A program made the translations under genes and the position numbers. The notes under the pieces are model-generated. The model was not told the DNA's origin, ran no database searches, and was given only the letters and a program-made list of their open reading frames with translations. Shown piece after piece: positions 9,628 through 45,947 of a stretch of DNA of 46,481 nt; position 1 is the stretch's first letter; every line of letters begins with the position of its first letter. The DNA lies in IMG/VR virus record IMGVR_UViG_3300005663_000636, positions 1-46,481 of that record; one strand, 5' to 3'. Source of the stretch: a virus.

Positions 9628-9656
9628 TTGACAAAGTTCGCAAAGCATGATATAGT
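9628..9656 (+). promoter_or_regulatory. Near-consensus sigma70 promoter of the early region
   Basis: TTGACA at 9628-9633 and TATAGT at 9651-9656 are separated by exactly 17 bases. The predicted start site, about seven bases past the -10 box, falls on the ATG at 9663, so the first gene would be translated from a leaderless message. It drives the rightward early/middle operon. Confidence 0.85.
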
Positions 9657-12872: not shown

Positions 12873-13051
12873 CTGAGGAAATCAAGGGGCCTAGATATAT
12901 CGCACAGGTTGAGAGGTCAGTTAAGGGCGTGCTTACATATAAAGTAAGGGCGGAAACTGAGTCAATGAGGCAATCAATGGACGAATTACATGAGATGGTC
13001 AGGGAGATGGAGACCGTTTATCCAGCGCCACTAGCAGAGGGGGGAAAATGA
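12869..13051 (+). CDS. Hypothetical protein upstream of ERF (60 aa)
   Basis: ATG 12869 overlaps the previous stop and has AAGGAGGAAGT directly upstream. Sixty residues with a beta strand then a long charged helix. Ends overlapping the ERF start by four bases, so it is co-translated with the recombinase and may be a partner. Confidence 0.5.
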   Translation: MTEEIKGPRYIAQVERSVKGVLTYKVRAETESMRQSMDELHEMVREMETVYPAPLAEGGK

Positions 13052-13734
13052 AAAAATCCGATACGATAGGTGAATTGGCCCAAGCGCTTGTCCAAGTTCA
13101 GAAGGTTCTTGAGGGAGCAAAGAAGGATTCAACAAACCCGTTCTTCAAGAGTAAATATGCCGACTTATCCTCAGTGTGGGATGCTTGCCGCAAACCCCTC
13201 GCTGAAAACAATCTTGCAGTGATACAGACTATGGATACCTACGAGGGGGCTGGCTTTATTATCGAGACGACCTTAGCGCATATTAGCGGAGAATGGATAA
13301 GCGGCCGGTTAAGTATAACACCGGTAAAAGACGACCCCCAAGGGATAGGCTCTGCGATTACCTATGGACGACGCTATACCCTGGCTGCTATCGTGGGAGT
13401 GTGTCCTGAGGACGATGATGCAGAGTCGGCGATGGACAGGAAGGGAAAGGCTGTGCAGACCACCTCAGCGCCCTCTCAGGGCAAGGAACCGATACCGGAG
13501 GGTGAACCGCGGACATCGCCAGGGGTACGAGAACCCGTAACGAGGAAGTCTTTAGAGGAACGAATCAAGGGTCTGCTCAGGGCACAGGGCATCAAGGGGG
13601 TTAATCAGTTGGCCGACTATCTCAAGGAGAACCACTTTGCAGAGACGAGCATCGAGAACCTTAGCGATGACGGTCTAACGGGGTTGGTGACACTGTTGGG
13701 GAAGGAAGTTGAACCAAAGGATATTCCATATTAA
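13048..13734 (+). CDS. erf: ERF-family single-strand annealing protein
   Basis: A 228-residue protein with the ERF superfamily hallmarks: 'NPFFKSKYADLSSVWDACRKPL' region at residues 30-51 and 'GIGSAITYGRRYTLAAIVG' at 99-117. A variable linker and a small C-terminal helical domain follow. Family members coat single-stranded DNA and anneal complementary strands in phage recombination. The usual partner exonuclease is not next to it; the VRR-NUC protein at 22136 or host RecJ/RecBCD could supply ends. An HNH-like protein lies 170 bases downstream. Confidence 0.9.
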   Translation: MKKSDTIGELAQALVQVQKVLEGAKKDSTNPFFKSKYADLSSVWDACRKPLAENNLAVIQTMDTYEGAGFIIETTLAHISGEWISGRLSITPVKDDPQGIGSAITYGRRYTLAAIVGVCPEDDDAESAMDRKGKAVQTTSAPSQGKEPIPEGEPRTSPGVREPVTRKSLEERIKGLLRAQGIKGVNQLADYLKENHFAETSIENLSDDGLTGLVTLLGKEVEPKDIPY

Positions 13735-13743
13735 GGAGGTATG

Positions 13744-13965
13744 ATGGTAGCTTGTGGGATATGCGATCACGATACAAAACTATTCTGTAGCGCTTGGAAT
13801 GGCACGGGTGAAGTGGGTGCGTCGGCTCTCTATATGCCCTTTGAATGCAAGCCAAAGACCTGTGGATACAGCAGGGAACAGATAGAAATGAGGCCGTTAG
13901 TTGCGGAAAGCGCCGATACGGAAACTGAGCCAACTACACAAAGGCGAGCTAAGGCTCAGGTCTGA
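13744..13965 (+). CDS. Cys-rich hypothetical protein (73 aa)
   Basis: ATG 13744 sits four bases from AAGGAGGT; ATG 13741 is too close to the ribosome site. Cys pairs 'CGICDHDTKLFC' and 'CKPKTC' suggest one zinc site. Its last 65 bases overlap the next gene in another frame. Confidence 0.5.
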   Translation: MVACGICDHDTKLFCSAWNGTGEVGASALYMPFECKPKTCGYSREQIEMRPLVAESADTETEPTTQRRAKAQV

Positions 13966-14146
13966 ACTTAAAAGAAAACTTTTAGCTGAGCAGATAGAGG
14001 AACGAGGTTATAACTTCTGCATGAGTTGTGGGAAGTCCGAGGCTGTAGACCTTGCCCACGTCGTCAAGGTTCAAGTAGGGGGCACATCACGTGAGAATTG
14101 TAGGCTATGGTGCAGGCTTTGTCACACTACAATCAGCGGGCACTAG
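13901..14146 (+). CDS. HNH-like zinc nuclease (81 aa), probable TTG start
   Basis: The frame opens at TTG 13901 directly after an in-frame stop. A basic N-terminal half precedes 'CMSCGKSEAVDLAHVVKV', 'SRENCRLWCRLCH' and a terminal 'SGH'. Two Cys pairs enclosing a DLAH and an N-containing segment with a final His match the compact HNH/beta-beta-alpha-metal plan. Location beside ERF suggests a role in recombination or junction cleavage, analogous to NinG, though similarity to NinG is not demonstrated. Confidence 0.6.
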   Translation: MRKAPIRKLSQLHKGELRLRSELKRKLLAEQIEERGYNFCMSCGKSEAVDLAHVVKVQVGGTSRENCRLWCRLCHTTISGH

Positions 14147-14359: not shown

Positions 14360-14380
14360 ATACTCGTGGAAAGGAGACCC

Positions 14381-14584
14381 GTGGATATAAAGATTGGGGA
14401 ACTAACGCCGGCACAGAAGAAGGTCTTTAAGAAACTAGGGAAGATGCAGACCGAGGCGTTAATATTACAGGGTCGTCATAGGGTGGGATTAGAAGCCCTC
14501 TGGAATGAATTGGATCGTGAGTATACGTTGCCTAAAGGAGTCTATATCTCGAATGGGGTTATCTACCAATATGAACCTCTATGA
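14381..14584 (+). CDS. Hypothetical protein, GTG start (67 aa)
   Basis: GTG 14381 follows AAGGAGACC; a GTG at 14366 lacks a ribosome site. Charged helical product. The bases before it (AATACTCGTGG) recur at 14584-14594 at the entry to the structured RNA. Confidence 0.45.
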   Translation: MDIKIGELTPAQKKVFKKLGKMQTEALILQGRHRVGLEALWNELDREYTLPKGVYISNGVIYQYEPL

Positions 14585-14590
14585 ATACTC

Positions 14591-14832
14591 GTGGTTGCTT
14601 CGCCCGTTGGGATGATGACCAGAGAGGCAATCACTTGTAGAGCTAGGGCCGAAAAGAAGAGTCGACTTACCAAGTAGGCTCTAGCGAATCTTCCCTACCG
14701 TTGAAGAACTGGTGGGGCTTGAGAAGGGGCTGGTGGGAGATGCGAAGGATAGGTCGTCTTAACTTGCAAGCGCCTGTCTGAAGCGGGTCGAAGGAGCGAT
14801 AGCAGTCGAGCCAATAGTCTCCCACCAGCCCC
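14591..14832 (+). ncRNA. Candidate structured RNA with four consecutive hairpins
   Basis: This gene-free 242-base stretch folds by eye into: H1 GTGGTTGCTT (14591-14600) with AGGCAATCAC (14625-14634), 10 bp with two wobbles; H2 GCTAGGGCC (14642-14650) with GGCTCTAGC (14677-14685), 9 bp; H3 CCCTACC (14693-14699) with GGTGGGG (14711-14717), 7 bp; H4 GGGGCTGGTGGGAGA (14726-14740) with TCTCCCACCAGCCCC (14818-14832), a perfect 15 bp closing a 77-base internal region. No T tract follows; a ribosome site (AGAGGAGAG) and a gene come 20 bases later. It is not a tRNA, tmRNA, RNase P or intron pattern I know. It could be a stand-alone RNA or a cis element. Confidence 0.65.
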
Positions 14833-14851
14833 CACAAAGAGGAGAGCAAAA

Positions 14852-15076
14852 ATGAGATGGAAAAAATTGTACAGCACATCAATAAAAGTTTGTCTGTCTA
14901 CGGACATAAGGGATATAATGAAGAGCCGATTGCCTGCTACACCAGAGTTCCTTGACCAGCTCGAAAACATAGTTCAACTAATAATTGAGGTGGTGCCTGA
15001 ACACATGGAGTATAGCCACGAGGACTATATTAGTATGGTAGTAGGAGGAAAAGATGATGCCACAAGAGTGCCCTAA
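14852..15076 (+). CDS. Hypothetical protein (74 aa)
   Basis: ATG 14852 behind AGAGGAGAG at the foot of the structured RNA. Basic N-terminus followed by an acidic helix ('LDQLENIVQLIIEVVPEHME'). Overlaps the next gene by 23 bases. Expression may depend on the upstream RNA fold. Confidence 0.5.
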   Translation: MRWKKLYSTSIKVCLSTDIRDIMKSRLPATPEFLDQLENIVQLIIEVVPEHMEYSHEDYISMVVGGKDDATRVP

Positions 15077-15248
15077 ATGTGAAGACGAATTAGCTCACTA
15101 TGGTAAACTCCCATCCCTGTGCTCTGAATGTGGTGCAGATAGAACAGGAAAGATGTATCCTGGATATGTAGATGATGAAGGTGACACAACTCGTAGTAAA
15201 TGGTCAGACCAGCAAAGGCTAATTGAGGAGCAAAGGTGGTTTCATTAG
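15054..15248 (+). CDS. Zinc-ribbon protein (64 aa)
   Basis: Start ATG 15054 five bases from AGGAGG. 'CPKCEDELAHYGKLPSLCSE' continues to CG, giving a clear CPxC...CxxC zinc ribbon at residues 6-25; acidic C-terminal half. Function unknown. Confidence 0.6.
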   Translation: MMPQECPKCEDELAHYGKLPSLCSECGADRTGKMYPGYVDDEGDTTRSKWSDQQRLIEEQRWFH

Positions 15249-15638: not shown

Positions 15639-15707
15639 GGGGCTGCGGGGGTGCTGCCGAATATAAAGAATAAGGCAGTCGGATTGTTCGCTACTACCCC
15701 GCAGCCC
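15639..15707 (+). ncRNA. Second structured RNA element, related to the 14726-14832 stem
   Basis: GGGCTGCGGGG (15640-15650) pairs perfectly with CCCCGCAGCCC (15697-15707), and inside it CTGCC (15654-15658) pairs with GGCAG (15674-15678). The 5' arm begins AAGGGGCTG and the interior contains GCAGTCG, both also found in the 14726-14832 element, while the upper stem differs with compensating changes. It ends four bases before an AGGAG site and the gene at 15719, so it could control that gene's translation. Confidence 0.6.
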
Positions 15708-17372: not shown

Positions 17373-17700
17373 GCCACGGGAGGTGACACCAGAGCTGCGG
17401 GTAGTGAGAGCAGATCGAGATAATGCGACGACATCTGTTTGGCGAGGATTTTTCATAACACGGTCAAAAGTATTCGATACTGTGTGCATAAGGCCCACTG
17501 AGGTTGGCGATTGGGGAAGGGATGGCATACCCGAAGATATTGTGGAGTTCCTTCGGAGGCTAGGGTGGCTTCCTAATTGCCACCATGTCGAGAATCAAGA
17601 AGGGGAGATTATGACAGGATGCCTCTTTAATCAGAGTGCCACCCTAGCCGAAGCCGTCAGAGCCATAGACGCATACTGGCTTGACACTCTAGGAGATTAA
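17365..17700 (+). CDS. Hypothetical protein (111 aa)
   Basis: An alpha/beta protein without recognised family; contains 'SVWRGFFITRSKVFDTVCIR' and a C-terminal helix. Followed directly (no gap) by the next start. Confidence 0.5.
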   Translation: MIEPREVTPELRVVRADRDNATTSVWRGFFITRSKVFDTVCIRPTEVGDWGRDGIPEDIVEFLRRLGWLPNCHHVENQEGEIMTGCLFNQSATLAEAVRAIDAYWLDTLGD

Positions 17701-17892: not shown

Positions 17893-18298
17893 AGATTTAT
17901 CGCCTCCACACAGCAGCGAGGCTGAACTGAGTGTCCTCGGCTCGTGTTTCATTGACTACGAGGCGTTCAAGAAGGTCAAGGATATGCTTATCCCTCAAGA
18001 TTTCTACATTGATAAGAATCAGTGGGTGTTTGCAGTAATGCTGAACCTCTACTGGGGCGGTCAGCCTACGAATCAGATCATAGTAGCCTATGGACTTCAG
18101 AGGATGGGTAAACTCCAGGAGGTAGGCGGGGCAGTGTTTATTTCCCACTGTATTGCCGAGACTCCAACCTCGGTACACGTAGTCTATTATGCCAAGCTAG
18201 TCAAGGAATGCTCTGACCGGAGAAACCAAATAGTGAAGGGGGAGAAGCAGATACAGGATGCCTTTGAGGGCAAGGTTCAACGGGGTATTTATGATTGA
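17885..18298 (+). CDS. Stand-alone DnaB N-terminal domain protein (137 aa)
   Basis: 'PPHSSEAELSVLGSCFIDYE', 'FYIDKNQWVFAVMLNLY' and 'QEVGGAVFISHCIAETPTSV' followed by 'VYYAKLVKECSDRR' reproduce the N-terminal (primase-contacting, collar) domain of DnaB helicases. The RecA-like motor that normally follows is absent; instead the next gene, overlapping by eight bases, encodes a different RecA-fold ATPase. It may form a two-subunit helicase with it or redirect the host DnaB-primase-loader system. Confidence 0.8.
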   Translation: MYKDLSPPHSSEAELSVLGSCFIDYEAFKKVKDMLIPQDFYIDKNQWVFAVMLNLYWGGQPTNQIIVAYGLQRMGKLQEVGGAVFISHCIAETPTSVHVVYYAKLVKECSDRRNQIVKGEKQIQDAFEGKVQRGIYD

Positions 18299-19532
18299 AT
18301 ATACCTGGGATGAGGAGAGGATATTCTCTGAACTTAGATTGCCCACGGGAAGAATTTTGAAGATACAGGCTAATTCCATTAGACGGGAGCGCACAGGAGT
18401 CCATGCTTTGATAGAGATTTCGATAAAGGGTAGCACCAAAAATGTTATTCTGGCATGGGATAGGTTCAACATTGAACGGGATGCCGATAGGACTCGCTTG
18501 TCCAACTCAGCATACAAACAGTTCCTAGATGAAGACAAGGTGTATACATCTGGTGAATTGAAACAGGCACTTGATACATTTAGCGGTGGACTATGGGAGA
18601 AGTCCCTTGAAGCGTTTCAGCCCTCCCCGTTGGTGGGAGAAGAATCAAAAACACAGTTTCTATTAGACCCCTACATAATCGAGGGTGGGGGAACGATTCT
18701 TTTCGGCCCCCCAGGGAGAGGCAAGAGTTTTACGGCACAGTTAATGATGGTATGTGTGGATGCTGGTGTGGATACTTTCTGGAAAGTAAAATGTGCCGAT
18801 GTTCTCTTTATCAATCTTGAGCGATCCCGACAGTCAGCCGCTAATAGACTTGCCCCGCTTAATAGAATACTAGGATATGGCTCTGAGCGCCCTCTTATGA
18901 CACTTAATGCACGAGGCAAGAGTCTCATGGAGGTGGCTGATGGTATAAGAAAGGCCATTAAGAAATACAACATTAAACTAGTGGTTCTTGACTCCATCAG
19001 CCGGGCAGGGTTTGGAGACCTAACCGAGAACAAGCCTGTCAACGCAATTATGGATTGCCTAAATGACCTTTGCCCCACATGGCTAGCTTTAGCCCACTCG
19101 CCCAGAGCTAACGATGATCATGTTTACGGAGGGATACACTTCGATGCTGCTGCCGACATAGTAATCCAATTACTTTCCGAGGTTAGCCCCGATGGTACTT
19201 TGGGGATAGGATTGAACGTAGTCAAGACAAACGATACGAGTACGCCACCCATGCAGATACTTGCCTATGAGTTCGGAGAGAACGGACTCAAGCATATCCG
19301 AAAGGCGAAACCACTTGAGTTTCCAGAGATAACATCTAAGCCCAAGACCACGATGCTTCAAGAGGTCATGGGTTACCTAGATGAACACGAGCAAGCATCC
19401 GCCACCGAAATATCAGAGGAACTAAACCGGAGCCGTCCCAAGATAAGCGAAATGCTAAAGCATAATTCAAACTTTACGCCCATAAAGAAGGATGGCAAGA
19501 GTGTTATCTATGGTCTCAAGTACCGTTTTTAG
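18291..19532 (+). CDS. RepA/AAA_25-type replicative ATPase with C-terminal winged helix (413 aa)
   Basis: Start taken at ATG 18291 ('MIEYTWDEERIF'), overlapping the DnaB-N stop; an in-frame ATG at 18258 is possible. Residues 139-146 are the Walker A 'GPPGRGKS', a Walker B-like 'IKLVVLDSISRAG' follows near 230, and the fold matches RepA/KaiC-like hexameric helicases. The last ~55 residues ('EVMGYLDEHEQASATEISEE...') form a winged helix, apt for origin binding. The iteron-rich stretch immediately downstream is the likely origin. It probably acts as the phage's replicative helicase or loader. Confidence 0.8.
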   Translation: MIEYTWDEERIFSELRLPTGRILKIQANSIRRERTGVHALIEISIKGSTKNVILAWDRFNIERDADRTRLSNSAYKQFLDEDKVYTSGELKQALDTFSGGLWEKSLEAFQPSPLVGEESKTQFLLDPYIIEGGGTILFGPPGRGKSFTAQLMMVCVDAGVDTFWKVKCADVLFINLERSRQSAANRLAPLNRILGYGSERPLMTLNARGKSLMEVADGIRKAIKKYNIKLVVLDSISRAGFGDLTENKPVNAIMDCLNDLCPTWLALAHSPRANDDHVYGGIHFDAAADIVIQLLSEVSPDGTLGIGLNVVKTNDTSTPPMQILAYEFGENGLKHIRKAKPLEFPEITSKPKTTMLQEVMGYLDEHEQASATEISEELNRSRPKISEMLKHNSNFTPIKKDGKSVIYGLKYRF

Positions 19533-19534
19533 AA

Positions 19535-19711
19535 AACGTGTCCCCCCTATAGTATGTTACTTAGGTAACACATACTTTTATAGTAGGTACTCATCTAAGG
19601 GAACACGTTATTTTGAAGCTAGGCTCGAAGCTGATGTGTTCTTTGGGAACAACGAGGGTACACATGGGGACACGTTATTTTTCGAAGCTGTAGCTTCAGG
19701 GGACACGTATT
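19535..19711. other. Putative replication origin: iterons and dyads
   Basis: The 193-base gap after the helicase gene holds four copies of a GGGGACACGTTATT-type iteron: inverted at 19535-19545 (AACGTGTCCCC), direct at 19599-19620, 19666-19689 and 19699-19711. Two of the direct copies continue into GAAGCT. Also present are a GTATGTTAC/GTAACACATAC hairpin (19552-19575, two-base bulge), an ATGTGT/ACACAT dyad (19634-19639, 19660-19665) and GAAGCTGTAGCTTC (19684-19697). Frames crossing it look spurious. Iterons next to a helicase gene are the usual plan of phage and plasmid origins; a regulatory role is the alternative. Confidence 0.65.
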
Positions 19712-19725
19712 AAAGGAGGGCGATA

Positions 19726-21564: not shown

Positions 21565-22155
21565 ATGCCACAGATAGGAGAAATAAGAAAGGGCAGGGAA
21601 ATAGGTAGGTGCAAGGGGGTTAGTAAAGCAGGGCTTTCGCAGAATTATATTTACCATGCTTGTGAGGCTTGTGGAGTAGAGAGGTGGGTAGAGTGTGTTG
21701 CCGGTAGGTCTACGGGTAGGCGATGTAGAGACTGTCAATTACGAAGCATTCATACAAAGGAAGTTTGGGGCAAGGTTTCCAAAACAGTGAAAGCCAAAAA
21801 TCTTCGGGGTGAGCGGAGTACTAATTGGAAGGGCGGTTATCACAGAACACCAGATGGGTATATGGTAATGCAATTGCAACCCACGGACTTCTATTACCCA
21901 ATGGCAAATAGCGTGGGGATAGTGCGAGAACATCGCTTGGTAATGGCAAGGCATCTTAACAGATGCTTACTGCCTTGGGAGATTGTTCATCATAAAAATA
22001 GCGTACGGGATGATAATAGGCTTGAAAATTTGGTACTCATCAAGGGGCACGCAAATCATTTACCATTTACCGCTCTTCGGAAAGAGAATAATCAACTCAA
22101 GTGTAGGATTAGGGAATTGGAGGAGCAGTTAGAAAATGAACGAAAGCCACTTTAG
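21565..22155 (+). CDS. HNH homing endonuclease (196 aa)
   Basis: N-terminal 'MPQIGEIRKGREIGR' module with a zinc finger (HACEACG..., then CRDC at residues 54-57). The nuclease core is '[20 protein letters not shown]' then HHKN (142-145), DDNRLEN (149-155) and HANH (162-165), the HNH_3-type homing nuclease motif. A C-terminal coiled helix ends it. Selfish mobile gene; it has a private promoter and overlaps the VRR-NUC gene by 20 bases. Sister copies: 22479 (intact), 1839 and 3394 (remnants). Confidence 0.9.
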   Translation: MPQIGEIRKGREIGRCKGVSKAGLSQNYIYHACEACGVERWVECVAGRSTGRRCRDCQLRSIHTKEVWGKVSKTVKAKNLRGERSTNWKGGYHRTPDGYMVMQLQPTDFYYPMANSVGIVREHRLVMARHLNRCLLPWEIVHHKNSVRDDNRLENLVLIKGHANHLPFTALRKENNQLKCRIRELEEQLENERKPL

Positions 22156-22435
22156 GGCGGCGGTTGCTGATCTTGCAATTAGATTGGGCTGGCTTGTTGA
22201 TTTCCACCTCAAGAGTTACAGGGACAACACGAGAGAGGGTGTCACGCCAGGGATTCCTGACCTGACTTTATGCCGACCGCCCCGGCTGGTATACCTCGAA
22301 CTGAAGATGCCCGGTAAGCAGTTAAGTGGGGAGCAGGTGATGTGGCTAGAGGCGTTGAGGGAAGCGGGGGTAGTAGTCTATGTATTCTGGTACAGCGATG
22401 AAGTGATTAGCGAAATTGTTGACATTCTTAAGTGA
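22136..22435 (+). CDS. VRR-NUC domain nuclease (99 aa)
   Basis: A minimal VRR-NUC (PD-(D/E)XK superfamily) domain: '[20 protein letters not shown]' supplies the catalytic D (residue 42) and E-x-K (55-57), and the terminal '...[17 protein letters not shown]' is the conserved last strand and helix. Phage VRR-NUC proteins are thought to cut branched DNA such as Holliday junctions. It would complement the ERF annealing protein. Flanked on both sides by HNH genes. Confidence 0.85.
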
Positions 22436-22447
22436 TAGTGATATATT
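22419..22447 (+). promoter_or_regulatory. Sigma70 promoter of HNH gene at 22479
   Basis: TTGACA (22419-22424), overlapping the end of the VRR-NUC gene, and TATATT (22442-22447) are 17 bases apart. AGGA lies eight bases before the ATG at 22479. Confidence 0.75.
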
Positions 22448-22478
22448 AGTTATGGAATATATTAACAGGACTATAGGT

Positions 22479-23093
22479 ATGCCGGAGATAAACGAGGTTA
22501 AGTATGGTCGTGAAATTGGGCGTGGGAAATCGTATACTCGATTTCGGTGGATGGGGTGTGTGGGGTGTGGGAAGGAGCGGTGGGTGCCCTTGAGATGGGA
22601 TAAGCCTATATACCAATGTTGTAAAAGCTGTGGCAAGAAGGGCAAGGCATTTAGTGATGAGGCAAAGGCTAATATGAGCATATCTCAAAAGGCGAGGTTC
22701 GTTGACCAAACTAAGCACCCGTGGTGGAGGGGAGGCAGAATACTGTTGACCTATGGGTATGTGGGGCTTTGGGTTTCGAGCGATGATCCTTATGCCTCTA
22801 TGAGAGATAATAAGGGCTACATTAGTGAACACCGTCTTGTTATGGCGAGGCACCTTGGTCGTTGTCTCAGCTCGCTAGAAATTGTTCATCATAAGAACGG
22901 GGTTAGGGATGATAATAGAATAGAGAACCTGGAATTGATGAGTCACGGGAAGCATAGCTCGCAACATATGGAGGGCTATCGTGGAGGTTTCAGGAGGGGG
23001 CTTGTAGACGGTAGGAGCAAGCAGATGCAAGAGTTAAGGGCAAGGATTAAGGAATTAGAGAACGCGATATTGCCAATATTGAAAGGAGAGTGA
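22479..23093 (+). CDS. HNH homing endonuclease (204 aa)
   Basis: Start set at ATG 22479 because '[16 protein letters not shown]' matches the start of the sister protein at 21565. A zinc finger ([16 protein letters not shown]) precedes '[20 protein letters not shown]' and then [10 protein letters not shown] and the closing 'GKHSSQH', the HNH_3 core. C-terminal coiled helix. Selfish element with its own promoter. Confidence 0.9.
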
Positions 23094-23969: not shown

Positions 23970-24598
23970 TATTCCTCCTCCATAGCTTTATTTGCCAGGG
24001 CGAGAATGTCTATTGCCGCCCCTGCTACCCCTGCTGCCCCTTCTGCAGCCCATGCAGCCCCTGCTGCCCCTTCTGCAGCCCATGCTACCCCTGCAGTCCC
24101 TTCTGCCGCCCCTGCTGCTGCCCCTGCTGCCCGTGCTGCTGCCCCTGCTGCCCGTGCTGCTGCCCCTGCTGCTACCCATGCTGCCCTTTCTGCAGCCCCT
24201 GCAGTCCTGTCTGATTTATCAAGCCATGCAGATGCCCATGCTGCGAAGGCGTCATCGTTGTATACCTCCAAGGCACAGAGAATACCCCAACGTATCCGCT
24301 GTGCCTTGTTTACCGTGGGGGCTTTAATCCTCCGCAAGGATGTGAGGATTTTGCAGCCCGCTTTAAGGGCATCTTCGGACACGATGTTCCCAGCCTCACA
24401 TTCCCATAGGATATACTCCTCGAATCTGGCATGAATTGGGTTAGCGAGCACAGCTATGAGGGGGTCTCGATAGCAGTGTATAACCTGCTCTGAGCACAAC
24501 TCGTTGCTATTTACTCCAATCTCGTGAGTGATGCCCTCTCCCCACTGTGTGTTATTGTAGGTCTGCCCCTTCTCGTCGGTTAGTTTATAGACCTTCAT
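23969..24598 (-). CDS. DUF7666-like protein with Ala-rich repeat tail (209 aa)
   Basis: Start at the 'MKVYKLTDEKGQTYNNTQWG' Met, behind GAGGAGGAG. Residues 1-100 ('THEIGVNSNELCSEQVIHCY', 'DPLIAVLANPIHARFEEYIL', then WECE) match the phage/bacterial domain I know as DUF7666, a dry beta fold of unknown function. Residues 130-195 are a run of A-A-W-A-A-E-G-A-A repeats, a long amphipathic Ala helix encoded by tandem DNA repeats. Such tails are a habitual feature of this family and vary in length. Confidence 0.65.
   Translation of the reverse strand: MKVYKLTDEKGQTYNNTQWGEGITHEIGVNSNELCSEQVIHCYRDPLIAVLANPIHARFEEYILWECEAGNIVSEDALKAGCKILTSLRRIKAPTVNKAQRIRWGILCALEVYNDDAFAAWASAWLDKSDRTAGAAERAAWVAAGAAARAAGAAARAAGAAAGAAEGTAGVAWAAEGAAGAAWAAEGAAGVAGAAIDILALANKAMEEE
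24010..24215 (-). repeat. Tandem repeats encoding the Ala-rich tail
   Basis: Plus-strand units such as CTGCTGCCCCTTCTGCAGCC and CCTGCTGCCCGTGCTG recur in tandem with 15-27 base periods. On the minus strand they encode the Ala/Glu/Gly/Trp repeats. Slippage between units would change the helix length in multiples of five to nine residues. Confidence 0.75.
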
Positions 24599-29364: not shown

Positions 29365-29904
29365 GTGGATACTTCTGAGCTTTACATCAAGACACCAGAG
29401 CATCGAGAAAAGTTGTCCATTGCCATGCGTGGGAATAGGAACCAAGAGAAGGTGCGTTCTCTAAAAACTAGGGCACGAATAGCTAATTCCATGAAGGGCA
29501 ATGGAAATACGAGGGGCTATCTCCATGATGCAACAATGCGTCTTCGATGTAGCTTAGGAAAACTAGCCGAGAAAAACCCTGCTTGGATAGGGGGAAGGTC
29601 TTATCGCCCATATACCGCTGAGTGGACACGTGAACTCAAGCAACGCATTAAGGATAGGGATAAGCAAACCTGCCAATTATGCATTATCCAGATTGAAGAT
29701 GTTAGAGAATTGTATGTGCATCACATAGACTATGATAAGAGCAATAACAGTGAGGATAATCTGATAACGCTTTGTCACTCCTGCCACAGTAAGACAAATC
29801 ATCATAGGACGGAATGGGGGATACATAATGGATGGTTCAGTAGAAATGAAAACAATGTTAGAGAGCGCTATGAAGGCTCACCCCGAATCCTTTGCGAACT
29901 TTGA
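29365..29904 (+). CDS. HNH homing endonuclease with NUMOD3-like region (179 aa)
   Basis: GTG 29365 behind AGGGGGA. Residues 9-60 contain NUMOD3-like 'TPEHREKLSIAMRGNRN' repeats that bind the target site. The nuclease motif is 'CQLCIIQIEDVRELYVHHID', then 'NSEDNLITLCHSCH' and 'HH', a classical HNH with two Cys pairs. Its last 77 bases overlap the next gene, suggesting insertion at that gene's start. Mobile selfish gene next to the terminase cluster. Confidence 0.85.
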   Translation: MDTSELYIKTPEHREKLSIAMRGNRNQEKVRSLKTRARIANSMKGNGNTRGYLHDATMRLRCSLGKLAEKNPAWIGGRSYRPYTAEWTRELKQRIKDRDKQTCQLCIIQIEDVRELYVHHIDYDKSNNSEDNLITLCHSCHSKTNHHRTEWGIHNGWFSRNENNVRERYEGSPRILCEL

Positions 29905-30502: not shown

Positions 30503-30624
30503 TGGTATATTGCCCTACAGATTGTAAGAAGAAGGGGATGGAATGTCCGATGGAGGGGCCGCTTACGAGGACGTCTGATGTCGAATGCTGTGAGCATTAC
30601 GAAAGTGGGGGAGATGTGGAATGA
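30502..30624 (+). CDS. Cys-cluster microprotein, paralogue 1 flanking TerL (40 aa)
   Basis: 'MVYCPTDCKKKGMECPMEGP' then 'CCEHYE'. Same plan as the protein at 31991: YCPxDC-x4-GMECP...T-R...C-x2-Y-E. Stop overlaps the TerL start (ATGA). Confidence 0.65.
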   Translation: MVYCPTDCKKKGMECPMEGPLTRTSDVECCEHYESGGDVE

Positions 30625-31988
30625 CCACAGCAACCCTTGAGCACAAGTTAAAACGAGACCGTTTCATGGTCGCCGAGGAGATTGGGCTTGAACCGAGCGC
30701 ATTGCAGTCTCCCATACTAGAGTGCACGGCACGGGAGAGGCTGGTTGCCGGGGGGGAGCGGTCTGGGAAGAGCGAGATTGGAGCAGACGATATGTTCGGC
30801 TCCATCTTTGCGTTAGAAGCTGAATTAGTGTGGCTGTTCGGAGCCGATTACGGCGAGACCTCCCAAGAGTATCAGTACACAATTCGGAACGCACAGAAGC
30901 TAGGTATGCTCAAGAGTGCCAAGAAGCAGTCAAACCCAGGTGAGATTGTTTTACATGATGGGGAGCATCAGGGGACGATTATCAAGACTGTTTCAGGTAA
31001 GGACATCACAAAGATTGGCCGTGAGGCACCTGATTATATTCTTGTCTGCGAGGCGGCGAAGATTGATTATTTGACGTATCTAAGGCTAAGGGCGAGATTG
31101 GCGGAAAAAAAGGGTTATTTACTGCTGACAGGCACCTTTGAATCGAGTTTGGGGTGGTATCCCGAACTTTTTAATCTATGGCAGGTGCCTGGGGCAGACG
31201 GTGTTTCTTTCAGTATGCCATCATGGAGCAACCTAGCCAAGTTTAAGGGTGGTAGGGAGGATGAGGAGATACTGCGACAGGAGAGGAGTATGCCCTCTGA
31301 CCTGTTCAAGGAGCGCTTCGGGGGCATACCGTGTCCTCCGTATGGGTTGGTGTTCAAGGAATTTAGAGTTACTCTACACGTTGGGACATATGACTACGAT
31401 CCCACGTTACCCGTTCACATAGGGGTAGACCCTGGCTATGCGGGTGCCTGTGCCGTAGAGGTGGTGCAAATCAAGAACGATATACCTTACGTGATCGACG
31501 AGATATATGAACGGGGGCTAACTCAGGAGCAGATTATCGTGGTTTGCAAGCATAGGCCGTGGTGGGACAAAGTAGTAGGCGGGGTGATTGATATAGCCGG
31601 TAGAGCTCACCATGAGGATAAGTCTGCCGAGGAAGTGTGGCTCAAAGAAGGGGATTTGCGCTTAAAGTCCCAGAAGGTGGGGGTAATTGATGGGATTAAC
31701 CGATTCCGAACCTTTCTCTTGCCTGACCCGATAACAGGGTGGCCGCATTTTTACATCGACCATAAAGCGAAGGGGTTGATTGCGGAACTGGGCGGAGGAC
31801 CGTCTCCATTAGACGGAGGGGGTATGTGGCGCTACAAGACAGATAGTGCGGGATTGGTGGTTAGCGAGTTGCCCGACGACAAGGACAATCATGCTTGTAA
31901 GGCAATTATCTACCTATTGGTTGACCGTTTCGGTCTGGCAGGTGGGAAACGAAAAGCGCCAAAGAGCAAGGGTTCAATGAAGATGTAG
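30621..31988 (+). CDS. terL: Terminase large subunit
   Basis: A 455-residue protein with the ATPase Walker A 'GGERSGKS' (residues 44-51), a Walker B-like 'DYILVCEAAK' and a coupling motif 'LLTGTFESSLGWYPEL'. The RNase H-like nuclease domain starts near residue 270 with 'IGVDPGYAGACAVEVV' and includes 'GVIDIAGRAHH'. It powers DNA translocation into the capsid and cuts concatemers. It replaces the usual DE of Walker B with CE. Flanked by paralogous Cys-cluster microproteins. Stop/start overlaps couple it upstream. Confidence 0.9.
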   Translation: MTTATLEHKLKRDRFMVAEEIGLEPSALQSPILECTARERLVAGGERSGKSEIGADDMFGSIFALEAELVWLFGADYGETSQEYQYTIRNAQKLGMLKSAKKQSNPGEIVLHDGEHQGTIIKTVSGKDITKIGREAPDYILVCEAAKIDYLTYLRLRARLAEKKGYLLLTGTFESSLGWYPELFNLWQVPGADGVSFSMPSWSNLAKFKGGREDEEILRQERSMPSDLFKERFGGIPCPPYGLVFKEFRVTLHVGTYDYDPTLPVHIGVDPGYAGACAVEVVQIKNDIPYVIDEIYERGLTQEQIIVVCKHRPWWDKVVGGVIDIAGRAHHEDKSAEEVWLKEGDLRLKSQKVGVIDGINRFRTFLLPDPITGWPHFYIDHKAKGLIAELGGGPSPLDGGGMWRYKTDSAGLVVSELPDDKDNHACKAIIYLLVDRFGLAGGKRKAPKSKGSMKM

Positions 31989-42469: not shown

Positions 42470-43447
42470 ATGGCTGTAACAATACTCGATCACGCTATGG
42501 TATCAGCTAACGAAGGTAAGATGGTACTTGCTGCGATTGAAAATTGGTTTGCGAGGGAATCGCATATGGCCCAGAGTCTAGTTTGGGCCACGAACAAGGA
42601 ACTTGCGGTGCAAATCACCTCATGGAAGACCTTGCCCACCGTTGGAACAAGGATTTTGAACGCTGGGTTCTCGGAATCCAGTGGGAAGTTCCAACAGAAG
42701 ATAGAAAGCAAGTACATCTTCGGGCATTACATCGATGTAGACAGTGTTCTTGTGGACGCCAACCCCGCCGAAAGGACTATCCAGAGACAACAGAGTGCCG
42801 AGGGCATGGCGTTCAAATTCAACGACATGTTTATCAACGGCGACCCTCAGAGTAACGAGTTCAAGGGGCTGTCTGGACGTGTCGATGATGTAAACGCTTT
42901 AGGTGGGATTTATACCGACCAGTACATTGATGCGGGTAGTGCCACTACGGGAAAAGGTATCTTATACGATACCACCGAGAGACACTACTTCATCGACCAG
43001 ATGGCGAAGCTCAAGCACGTTATCGTGGGACATAGACCAGATGCGTTTTTAATGAACAGCAAGATGTATCTGGCGTTCGAGTCTGCGATGCGACGTGAGA
43101 GTTTACTCAAGCAAGACGCTGATCAGTTTGGACGGATTATAAACATGTTCTCAAGCGTACCCCTGGTTGACATTGGGATTAAGGCTGACCAGGCTACGGA
43201 GATTATCACCAATGGTGAATCTCTGAGTTTGGGGAGTGACGAGACCTCGATCTATGCTTACAGGCTTGGCGAAGGTAAGTATCTGTGGGGTATCCAGCAA
43301 AAACCAATGGAAGTAATTGACCACGGTAGGCGGGACAGTGCCCCTGTGTTCAGGGATGAGGTTCAGTGGGTGATTGGTCTGGCTGTCAGTGATCCCAGGT
43401 CGATTGCGAGAGCATACGGATTCGTGGCCGACTCTGGCGCAAGCTAA
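42470..43447 (+). CDS. Major capsid protein (325 aa)
   Basis: HK97-fold capsid by pattern: N-terminal arm, 'MAFKFNDMFINGDPQSNEFK' with GLSGR (a hallmark of this capsid group, residues about 113-137), a beta-hinge 'DAFLMNSKMYLAFESAMRRE' and a C-terminal 'VQWVIGLAVSDPRSIARAYG'. Strong ribosome site AAAGGAG. Follows the scaffold by 12 bases and precedes a Bbp16-like protein. Confidence 0.9.
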   Translation: MAVTILDHAMVSANEGKMVLAAIENWFARESHMAQSLVWATNKELAVQITSWKTLPTVGTRILNAGFSESSGKFQQKIESKYIFGHYIDVDSVLVDANPAERTIQRQQSAEGMAFKFNDMFINGDPQSNEFKGLSGRVDDVNALGGIYTDQYIDAGSATTGKGILYDTTERHYFIDQMAKLKHVIVGHRPDAFLMNSKMYLAFESAMRRESLLKQDADQFGRIINMFSSVPLVDIGIKADQATEIITNGESLSLGSDETSIYAYRLGEGKYLWGIQQKPMEVIDHGRRDSAPVFRDEVQWVIGLAVSDPRSIARAYGFVADSGAS

Positions 43448-44296: not shown

Positions 44297-45007
44297 ATGG
44301 GATTCGATGTTACATTACAGGCGGACGAGGATCAGGCTTCAATTAGCCTGAAAAGTGGAGACGATCAGAAGGTTGCCCTGTCTAAGCTGGGCGAGGTCTT
44401 TTCCGCCGACTGGAAACAGCGGCTTATCAGGTCTGGCCAGGCTTGGGCAGTTCATGTGGGGGGAATTACCACAGGTGCAGATATAGTAGGGGTAGTGGGG
44501 GGGGGCAATGGTACTACCATTGACACCGATCAGCCTGAATTGGTGATCGGTGTTCCTTTGGGGTATGACCTCATCCCGATGGAGACTCATGTAAGTGCCT
44601 ATTTCCACCCCATTACAGACAAGGCGATCAACAACATTCTCCTGTTTGGGGACAGAACACAGTCCCCTGTGTCACAGACAGCAACAGGAGTTGCAGTTAC
44701 GCCGGTGAACCTTCTTGATGGTGCAGGCGCTTTCCCTGGGACAGCTTGGAAGCAAGCTACCGCCGACATTACCACTGACCCTGTGGCTAGTGAGATTCTG
44801 GACTACGTGGCGACCCAGACCCTTGCTGCAACTGGAGGCCCTGGGCAGGGTGGTCTCAAGATGGATTATATGCCTGAAGCGCCCACGATATTCCGTGGGC
44901 CATGTCAGGTTGTCCTCTGTTGGGGAACAACCCAGGCTTCCGGTGCTACCGGAATGGGTGTTATCAAGGTAGGTTGCGTACCGTCTGGCTACTTCCCAGT
45001 TGGCTAA
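44297..45007 (+). CDS. Probable virion protein (236 aa)
   Basis: Beta-rich and Gly/Thr-rich with 'AWAVHVGGITTGADIVGVVG' and strands to the C-terminus; no signal peptide. Fibre, cement or appendage protein by context. Followed by a strong hairpin. Confidence 0.5.
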   Translation: MGFDVTLQADEDQASISLKSGDDQKVALSKLGEVFSADWKQRLIRSGQAWAVHVGGITTGADIVGVVGGGNGTTIDTDQPELVIGVPLGYDLIPMETHVSAYFHPITDKAINNILLFGDRTQSPVSQTATGVAVTPVNLLDGAGAFPGTAWKQATADITTDPVASEILDYVATQTLAATGGPGQGGLKMDYMPEAPTIFRGPCQVVLCWGTTQASGATGMGVIKVGCVPSGYFPVG

Positions 45008-45018
45008 TGTAGCTAAGT

Positions 45019-45052
45019 CCGAGGGGGGGAGGGTAAAACTTCCCCCCTTCGG
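45019..45052 (+). terminator. 12-bp hairpin after the 44297 gene
   Basis: CCGAGGGGGGGA (45019-45030) pairs with TCCCCCCTTCGG (45041-45052), one G-U, 10-base loop. It lacks a T tract, so it could reduce rather than stop transcription, protecting the upstream 3' end. The GT2 gene starts 25 bases later. Confidence 0.6.
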
Positions 45053-45077
45053 CCCAAATTACATTAGGAGGTGGGAA

Positions 45078-45947
45078 ATGGATGCAAAGTTGGATATATT
45101 GGTTCCGACTCATAATCATCTGGATCAGACGATGCGGTGCATAGAGAGTCTTTACAATTATACTCGTGCACCGTTTCATTTAATCGTAACAGATGATTCC
45201 ACGGACGGTCTGACACCACGTTACTTCAAGCAACTGCAAAAAGAGCACGACAATATCACCTATGTTCGTTCCCTTAAACAGTATAAGTGTGGGAACGAAT
45301 TTATCAATGTGGGCCTGAGTCATTGCAAGACTCCTTACATGGTCCTGGTAGTGAACAGCATGATGGTAGAGCCCGACTGGGAGACAGCGGGGTTGCATCT
45401 TATGGAAGCAGACCACGAAGTAGGCGTGGTTGGGTTTAAGTGCCTGAAGCACGAGGGTTGGATTGAAAGTGCAGGGTTAATGATTACGGAAGACCTGAGT
45501 TCTCTCAGAGATATTGGGACAGGACAAGCAGGCCACCGTCTTTCAAGGGTTTATGAGTGTATGGCTGTCCAGTTTGCATTTGTACTATTACGGAAAGAGG
45601 CTGCAACCGGCAATCTGCGAGAGGACATATTCCACGGTTTCAGGGGGATGGAGGACTTAGATAACTGTTTTGTAATCCGAGGCAAGGGGTGGAAGATACT
45701 TTATTGCGGACTCGGTATTGGTTTTCATCAGACTTATGCTACAAGGGAAGCTAGGGATGAAGAATCACTTAGGCAGAATTTAGAGAATCGAGAGGTATTT
45801 GCAAAGAGATGGGGGTTCTGGGCCTCATACCAGAAGATATTCCCCTTCCTTGGAGAAATGCTTCCCGATGTCAAACCTAGAGAAATGAGATTGCCACCGA
45901 ATTTCCAGACTGGCGAGTTGCAGGTAAAGGAGTATGCTACAAAATAA
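45078..45947 (+). CDS. GT2-family glycosyltransferase (289 aa)
   Basis: Start at ATG 45078, seven bases from AGGAGGTGGGA. 'LDILVPTHNHLDQTMRCIES', 'HLIVTDDSTDG' and 'MVLVVNSMMVEPDW' follow the GT-A fold; the usual DxD is replaced by a V-V-N-S-M-M context, so metal binding may differ. A later 'EDLDNCF' (ED-like base region) supports GT2. It would transfer a sugar to a phage or host acceptor. Stop overlaps the radical SAM start (TAATG). Confidence 0.8.
   Translation: MDAKLDILVPTHNHLDQTMRCIESLYNYTRAPFHLIVTDDSTDGLTPRYFKQLQKEHDNITYVRSLKQYKCGNEFINVGLSHCKTPYMVLVVNSMMVEPDWETAGLHLMEADHEVGVVGFKCLKHEGWIESAGLMITEDLSSLRDIGTGQAGHRLSRVYECMAVQFAFVLLRKEAATGNLREDIFHGFRGMEDLDNCFVIRGKGWKILYCGLGIGFHQTYATREARDEESLRQNLENREVFAKRWGFWASYQKIFPFLGEMLPDVKPREMRLPPNFQTGELQVKEYATK

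Follow-up and report, generated by a model that had tools for sequence, protein, structure and literature searches.

The window analyzed here, a stretch of 46,481 nucleotides, is a tailed-phage record from an uncultured virus. It encodes an Erf-type annealing protein (13048-13734), a primase/helicase-like ATPase (18258-19532), a TerL (30621-31988; a weak Pfam match, backed by annotated phage terminases) and a major capsid protein (42470-43447). Four HNH endonuclease genes lie on the + strand (13901-14146, 21565-22155, 22416-23093 and 29365-29904), the second and third of which have in common a 62-nt stretch at 74% identity. In a minus-strand gene block, positions 23985-24226 form a dense repeat of ~9-12 nt units (GCTGCCCCT-like), with 18 overlapping copies of a 65-nt reference; a 123-aa minus-strand frame at 24603-24971 matches, over its first ~25 residues, the C-terminal domain of ribosomal protein L7/L12 (Pfam PF00542, E 9.8e-7, above the curated cut-off). 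Of ten genome contigs with TerL relatives, eight come from Chloroflexota or Dehalococcoidia assemblies, with TerL identities of 42-45% or a little less (two are at 35-36%), and another is labelled Saccharibacteria; in a sample of 400 genomes from the phylum to which one of these genomes belongs, 19 also carried TerL relatives. Because these relatives are mostly from Chloroflexota or Dehalococcoidia, the virus probably infects a member of the Chloroflexota.

Within the early gene string, in a run of small + strand genes, lies a gene-free spacer of 242 nt (14591-14832, +), which we term E1. The small gene upstream (14366-14584, +; 72 aa as listed, with a start that may instead be the GTG at 14381) and the 74-aa gene downstream (14852-15076, +) belong to no known family. 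E1 starts after the stop at 14584, and its 3' end falls 5 nt short of AGAGGAG (14838-14844, +), the Shine-Dalgarno sequence of the 74-aa gene. The only strong + strand promoter-like site upstream of E1 is TTGACA-17-TATAGT (9628-9656, +), which by consensus match only agrees at 11 of 12 positions, carries a TG before the second hexamer, and is the probable start of the early operon. A consensus scan called no terminator-like site on the + strand from there to 17222, and it called neither a promoter-like site just upstream of E1 nor a terminator within it.

The preliminary description of this locus regarded E1 as gene-free, which holds for the + strand, where the longest open reading frame wholly inside it spans 28 aa and has no Shine-Dalgarno sequence. 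Minus-strand frames of 71 and 91 aa cross E1 and overlap the opposite-strand gene at 14852-15076; neither has a Pfam or PHROG match, and an antisense gene was rejected on that ground. Nor did a hidden conserved frame, against which the same description had set its structural reading, come to light over E1. Its further statement that E1 resembles no known phage RNA family agrees with a search of the whole window against Rfam 15 (GOLLD, ROOL, HEARO, pRNA, riboswitches, introns and others), which gave no match at gathering thresholds; at relaxed thresholds, 14400-15000 yielded a single chance match (PreQ1, E 2.5) outside E1. ARAGORN found no tRNA or tmRNA gene in the window.

Fold of the E1 spacer

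The + strand of E1 is predicted to form the four successive hairpins originally proposed, with stems of the proposed lengths in P2, P3 and P4 and of 11 rather than 10 pairs in P1. P1 (14591-14634, +) joins arms 14591-14601 and 14624-14634 through 11 continuous pairs, two of them G-U, at pair probabilities of 0.97-1.0; folded as 14585-14637, it scores z -2.5 on the + strand and -0.6 on the - strand. P2 (14642-14685, +; arms 14642-14650 and 14677-14685) has nine pairs, including one G-U, around a 26-nt loop, with stem pair probabilities of 1.0 and z -2.7. P3 (14689-14724, +; arms 14693-14699 and 14711-14717) has seven pairs, one of them G-U, to which are added a 3-bp tip beyond a bulge and a 4-bp base; its pair probabilities are 0.78-1.0, and z is -3.2 on the + strand and -1.2 on the - strand. 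The P4 domain (14726-14832, +), 107 nt in length, is closed by an outer stem (14726-14740 and 14818-14832) whose 15 pairs are all Watson-Crick and enclose exactly 77 nt, precisely as first described, with one U-G pair extending the stem. Inside it is a three-way junction with arms P4a (14742-14784, +; pair probabilities 0.92-1.0 in the main stem and 0.67-0.73 at the tip) and P4b (14785-14812, +; 0.92-0.99). The domain scores z -7.5 on the + strand and -5.2 on the - strand. An intrinsic terminator, in the sense of a G+C-rich stem with a T run behind it, was considered for E1 and rejected, since none was called within it and CACAAAGAGG comes after P4.

The folding energy of E1 lies well outside the range of its shuffles. 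Its minimum free energy is -109.7 kcal/mol where the shuffles average -80.9 (sd 5.0), giving z -5.72 with none of 200 shuffles equal; a repeat with 300 shuffles gave z -6.35, again with none as good, in line with the original claim that the stems are beyond chance. In a + strand scan of 580 segments of 160 nt each, the top outlier lies at 14721 (z -7.8) and the next reaches -5.0; this second peak (44961-45120, +) sits where genes 44297-45007 and 45000-45947 meet. When the whole window was shuffled 100 times, one shuffle contained a perfect 15-bp inverted repeat with a gap of 30-130 nt. Another long inverted repeat, at 17558-17649, was set aside: it lies inside an open reading frame and folds at z -2.0 only.

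Comparison of the two strands shows that both fold well only at the perfect P4 stem. For P1-P3 taken jointly, z is -3.1 on the + and -0.5 on the - strand, and for the P4 core -1.7 and +0.2, respectively; the minimum free energy fold of the + strand contains nine G-U pairs, which become A-C mismatches on the opposite strand. The ensemble is also well defined, with a diversity of 12.3 against a shuffle mean of 55. Among 9440 structures within 4 kcal/mol of the optimum, the five main helices checked (P1, P2, P3, the P4 outer stem and P4a) persist in all 9440, and P4b is kept in all but 16. The strand specificity points to an RNA read together with the operon, and the strand bias and well-defined ensemble in these predictions point to an RNA that is read in the gene direction and under selection, as evidence from a single sequence rather than from covariation.

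Sibling spacers, leader words and the search for relatives

Two other gene-free spacers of the window have a comparable arrangement. E2 (15639-15707, +; z -3.8) consists of an 11-bp perfect stem around a 46-nt core, with its 3' end at the Shine-Dalgarno sequence of gene 15719, and E3 (19533-19711, +), with 13-nt arms, runs from the helicase stop to the Shine-Dalgarno sequence of gene 19726 and folds at z -4.3 (19533-19725), or -5.6 in a second test. Perfect stems of at least 10 bp abutting a Shine-Dalgarno sequence occur at three of 65 starts (E1-P4, E2 and E3) against 0.2 expected, where the starts are those called mechanically with a Shine-Dalgarno sequence and the expectation comes from shifted positions. 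The corresponding figure in related phages is 7 of 993 starts against 3.3 expected, and the stem pattern is thus this phage's, not clearly the group's. The three stems are unlike in sequence, except for the GGGGCTG that starts both P4 and E2, and the loops of E2, P4 and E3 measure 46, 77 and 153 nt; within E1, a repeated strand is common to P3 and P4.

Short words recur among the operon leaders, with 14 pairs having a common word of at least 10 nt as compared with 0.97 for random pieces, a count of which part is the Shine-Dalgarno sequence itself. Both edges of E1 carry such words. At the 5' edge, ATACTCGTGG (14585-14594, +) has a second copy at 14360, the two sitting directly behind two successive stop codons; at the 3' edge, GCCCCCACAAAGA (14828-14840, +), which overlaps the P4 3' arm, recurs in another leader at 15248.

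No relative of E1 was found by BLAST against phage records, in 80 Erf loci, in 47 TerL-related viral records, at helicase-relative loci, in nine genomes with TerL relatives, or by a DNA search of 400 Chloroflexota genomes. Six weak DNA matches in the 400 genomes (per-genome E 0.001-0.009) are short, partly G-rich pieces at chance level, and 55 viral-contig loci with an exact 15-mer match are likewise all chance, the partner arm being absent from each. A covariance-model search of 19 TerL-bearing genomes also returned no E1 relative; both E1 models recover E1 in the window as a positive control and, because they are built on one sequence, could miss distant relatives. The downstream 74-aa gene and another early gene, used as bait, brought up no relatives. 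Relatives at the fetched loci turned up for only six of the proteins tested from the window, a set without Erf and TerL, which had already served as bait. At the search depth used, this phage is an orphan.

Strong-fold peaks in the helicase relatives were inspected as possible relatives of E1 and rejected: that of L246 (2721) is an AT-rich palindrome region, and the palindromic hairpins behind the helicase in L250 and L251 resemble E3 in position only, and not E1. Strong-fold spots at or just past the end of the helicase-like gene, the position that E3 occupies, are found in L248 and L249 (9280-9440), L250 (9200-9270) and L251 (4120-4170); the long palindromic hairpins of L250 and L251 look like end-of-operon hairpins. 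Two contigs, L210 (6208-6281) and L185 (4954-5015), have perfect inverted repeats of 15-16 bp that stop exactly where the contig does; these look like fold-back artefacts produced during sequencing or assembly.

A proposed cis-acting leader and its alternatives

We tentatively favor the reading, to which we give somewhat less than an even chance, that E1 is a cis-acting structured intercistronic leader with a role in processing, stability or translation control. What computation shows for the locus is the fold, how far it exceeds shuffles, on which strand it is favored, where it lies relative to the Shine-Dalgarno sequence, and that it has two siblings; we infer transcription from the 9628 promoter, processing and an effect on expression. 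E1 would be present as RNA in an early polycistronic transcript started at that promoter, and the + strand RNA would fold into the three hairpins and the three-way-junction domain, with the base of the latter 5 nt before the Shine-Dalgarno sequence. There, E1 would most likely control the fate of the message at the junction before the 74-aa gene: the long P4 helix may act in processing or stability, for instance through an RNase III-type cut or an exonuclease block, and may also insulate the ribosome site of the 74-aa gene from the gene before the spacer, with E2 and E3 acting likewise at two other junctions. A cis-acting leader is preferred over a discrete RNA because no promoter or terminator of its own was called for E1, because P4 ends 5 nt before a Shine-Dalgarno sequence, and because E1 has two smaller siblings. 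The preliminary description of a large structured RNA is accordingly retained as regards structure, which the comparison with shuffles bears out, and held less likely as regards an independent, discrete noncoding RNA, since the anatomy of a cis leader fits better. Against a cis leader stand the four-domain, 242-nt fold, which exceeds in complexity what a simple processing hairpin requires, as well as the lack of a homologue, the unclear enrichment of stems in related phages and a predicted Shine-Dalgarno occlusion that is ordinary for this operon.

An alternative is that E1 is an orphan trans-acting noncoding RNA, processed out of the operon transcript to act on host or phage RNA or proteins. 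Its four domains form a tight ensemble, its length is near that of the neighboring small genes, and the junction repeats on both edges make it resemble one cassette in the gene row; the absence of a called promoter or terminator, the 3' edge tied to a Shine-Dalgarno sequence as in E2 and E3, and the failure to find relatives make this reading unlikely. Slightly more doubtful is its stronger form, in which phage noncoding RNAs would gain a new class with E1 as its first known member: an RNA gene of four domains, carried as one cassette among the small early protein genes of a phage from a mostly uncultured phylum, released from the message and acting in trans.

Less probable again is a switch, in which a small molecule, a protein or a passing ribosome would refold E1 and alter access to the downstream Shine-Dalgarno sequence, either as a riboswitch-like element or by translational coupling through a candidate closing helix, P0. 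A multi-domain 5' leader with a three-way junction would suit such a role, and the strand repeated in P3 and P4 makes an exchange of partners conceivable. In P0, a weak candidate, CCUCU from the last bases of the upstream gene (14576-14580, +) would pair with the Shine-Dalgarno region (14838-14842), which would add translational coupling to a cis-acting leader as well. However, every structure within 4 kcal/mol of the optimum keeps the main helices, no Rfam riboswitch matches, and the pairing probability of P0 varies from 0.48 to 0.99 with the flanks folded; occlusion of the Shine-Dalgarno sequence by P0 was rejected as the main mechanism, its predicted extent being ordinary among genes of the operon.

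We give little credence to the idea that E1 works as DNA, as a replication origin, cruciform or recombination site: the perfect P4 arms do fold on both strands, and recombination and replication genes and junction repeats occur in the region, but P1-P3 and the P4 core fold far better on the + strand, which DNA hairpins would not need. Equally improbable is a decayed gene or chance fold, for which speak the lack of a homologue to show constraint and a spacer of about small-gene length between junction repeats, and against which E1 outperforms all shuffles and every other + strand segment and, as would not befit a decayed copy of a neighboring gene, has no translated similarity to window proteins.

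For the cis-acting leader, a precedent in position is found in phage T7, where RNase III processing sites between early genes are single hairpins of ~60 nt. The T7 hairpins sit in intercistronic spacers of the early polycistronic message, a short way ahead of ribosome sites, as those predicted here would; E1 differs from the single hairpins of T7 in having four domains, and RNase III cleavage of E1 is hypothetical, a role for the enzyme at P4 being proposed by analogy only. The closest described pattern is that of the start-associated and extended start-associated sequences (SAS/ESAS) of Cluster K mycobacteriophages (PMC3203893) and Cluster EF Microbacterium phages (PMC7302621). As in those phages, short leader words are repeated here at the ribosome sites of several small genes, and some sites have inverted repeats just upstream. 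The repeats of the ESAS are imperfect, 17 bp long and built on one common consensus, with spacers of 4-13 bp in most sites, and those who described them saw little support for mRNA hairpins (PMC3203893, PMC7302621); the three stems here do not take that form, for, unlike ESAS, they differ in sequence, enclose 46-153 nt, fold strongly and occupy only three sites. E1 also recalls GOLLD and ROOL, ornate phage RNAs that are often found near tRNA islands, many GOLLD exceeding 800 nt (PMC12286853), in being an elaborate structured phage RNA without an assigned function; it is much smaller than these, lies in a window without tRNA genes and has no Rfam match to either.

Whichever of these readings applies, the evidence from this one sequence warrants searching larger metagenome collections with a covariance model. 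As a released RNA, E1 would represent a new phage RNA family; should E1, E2 and E3 instead be leaders for processing or translation control, they would provide a testable example of structured spacers organizing the early operon of a phage whose host phylum is poorly studied and mostly uncultured.
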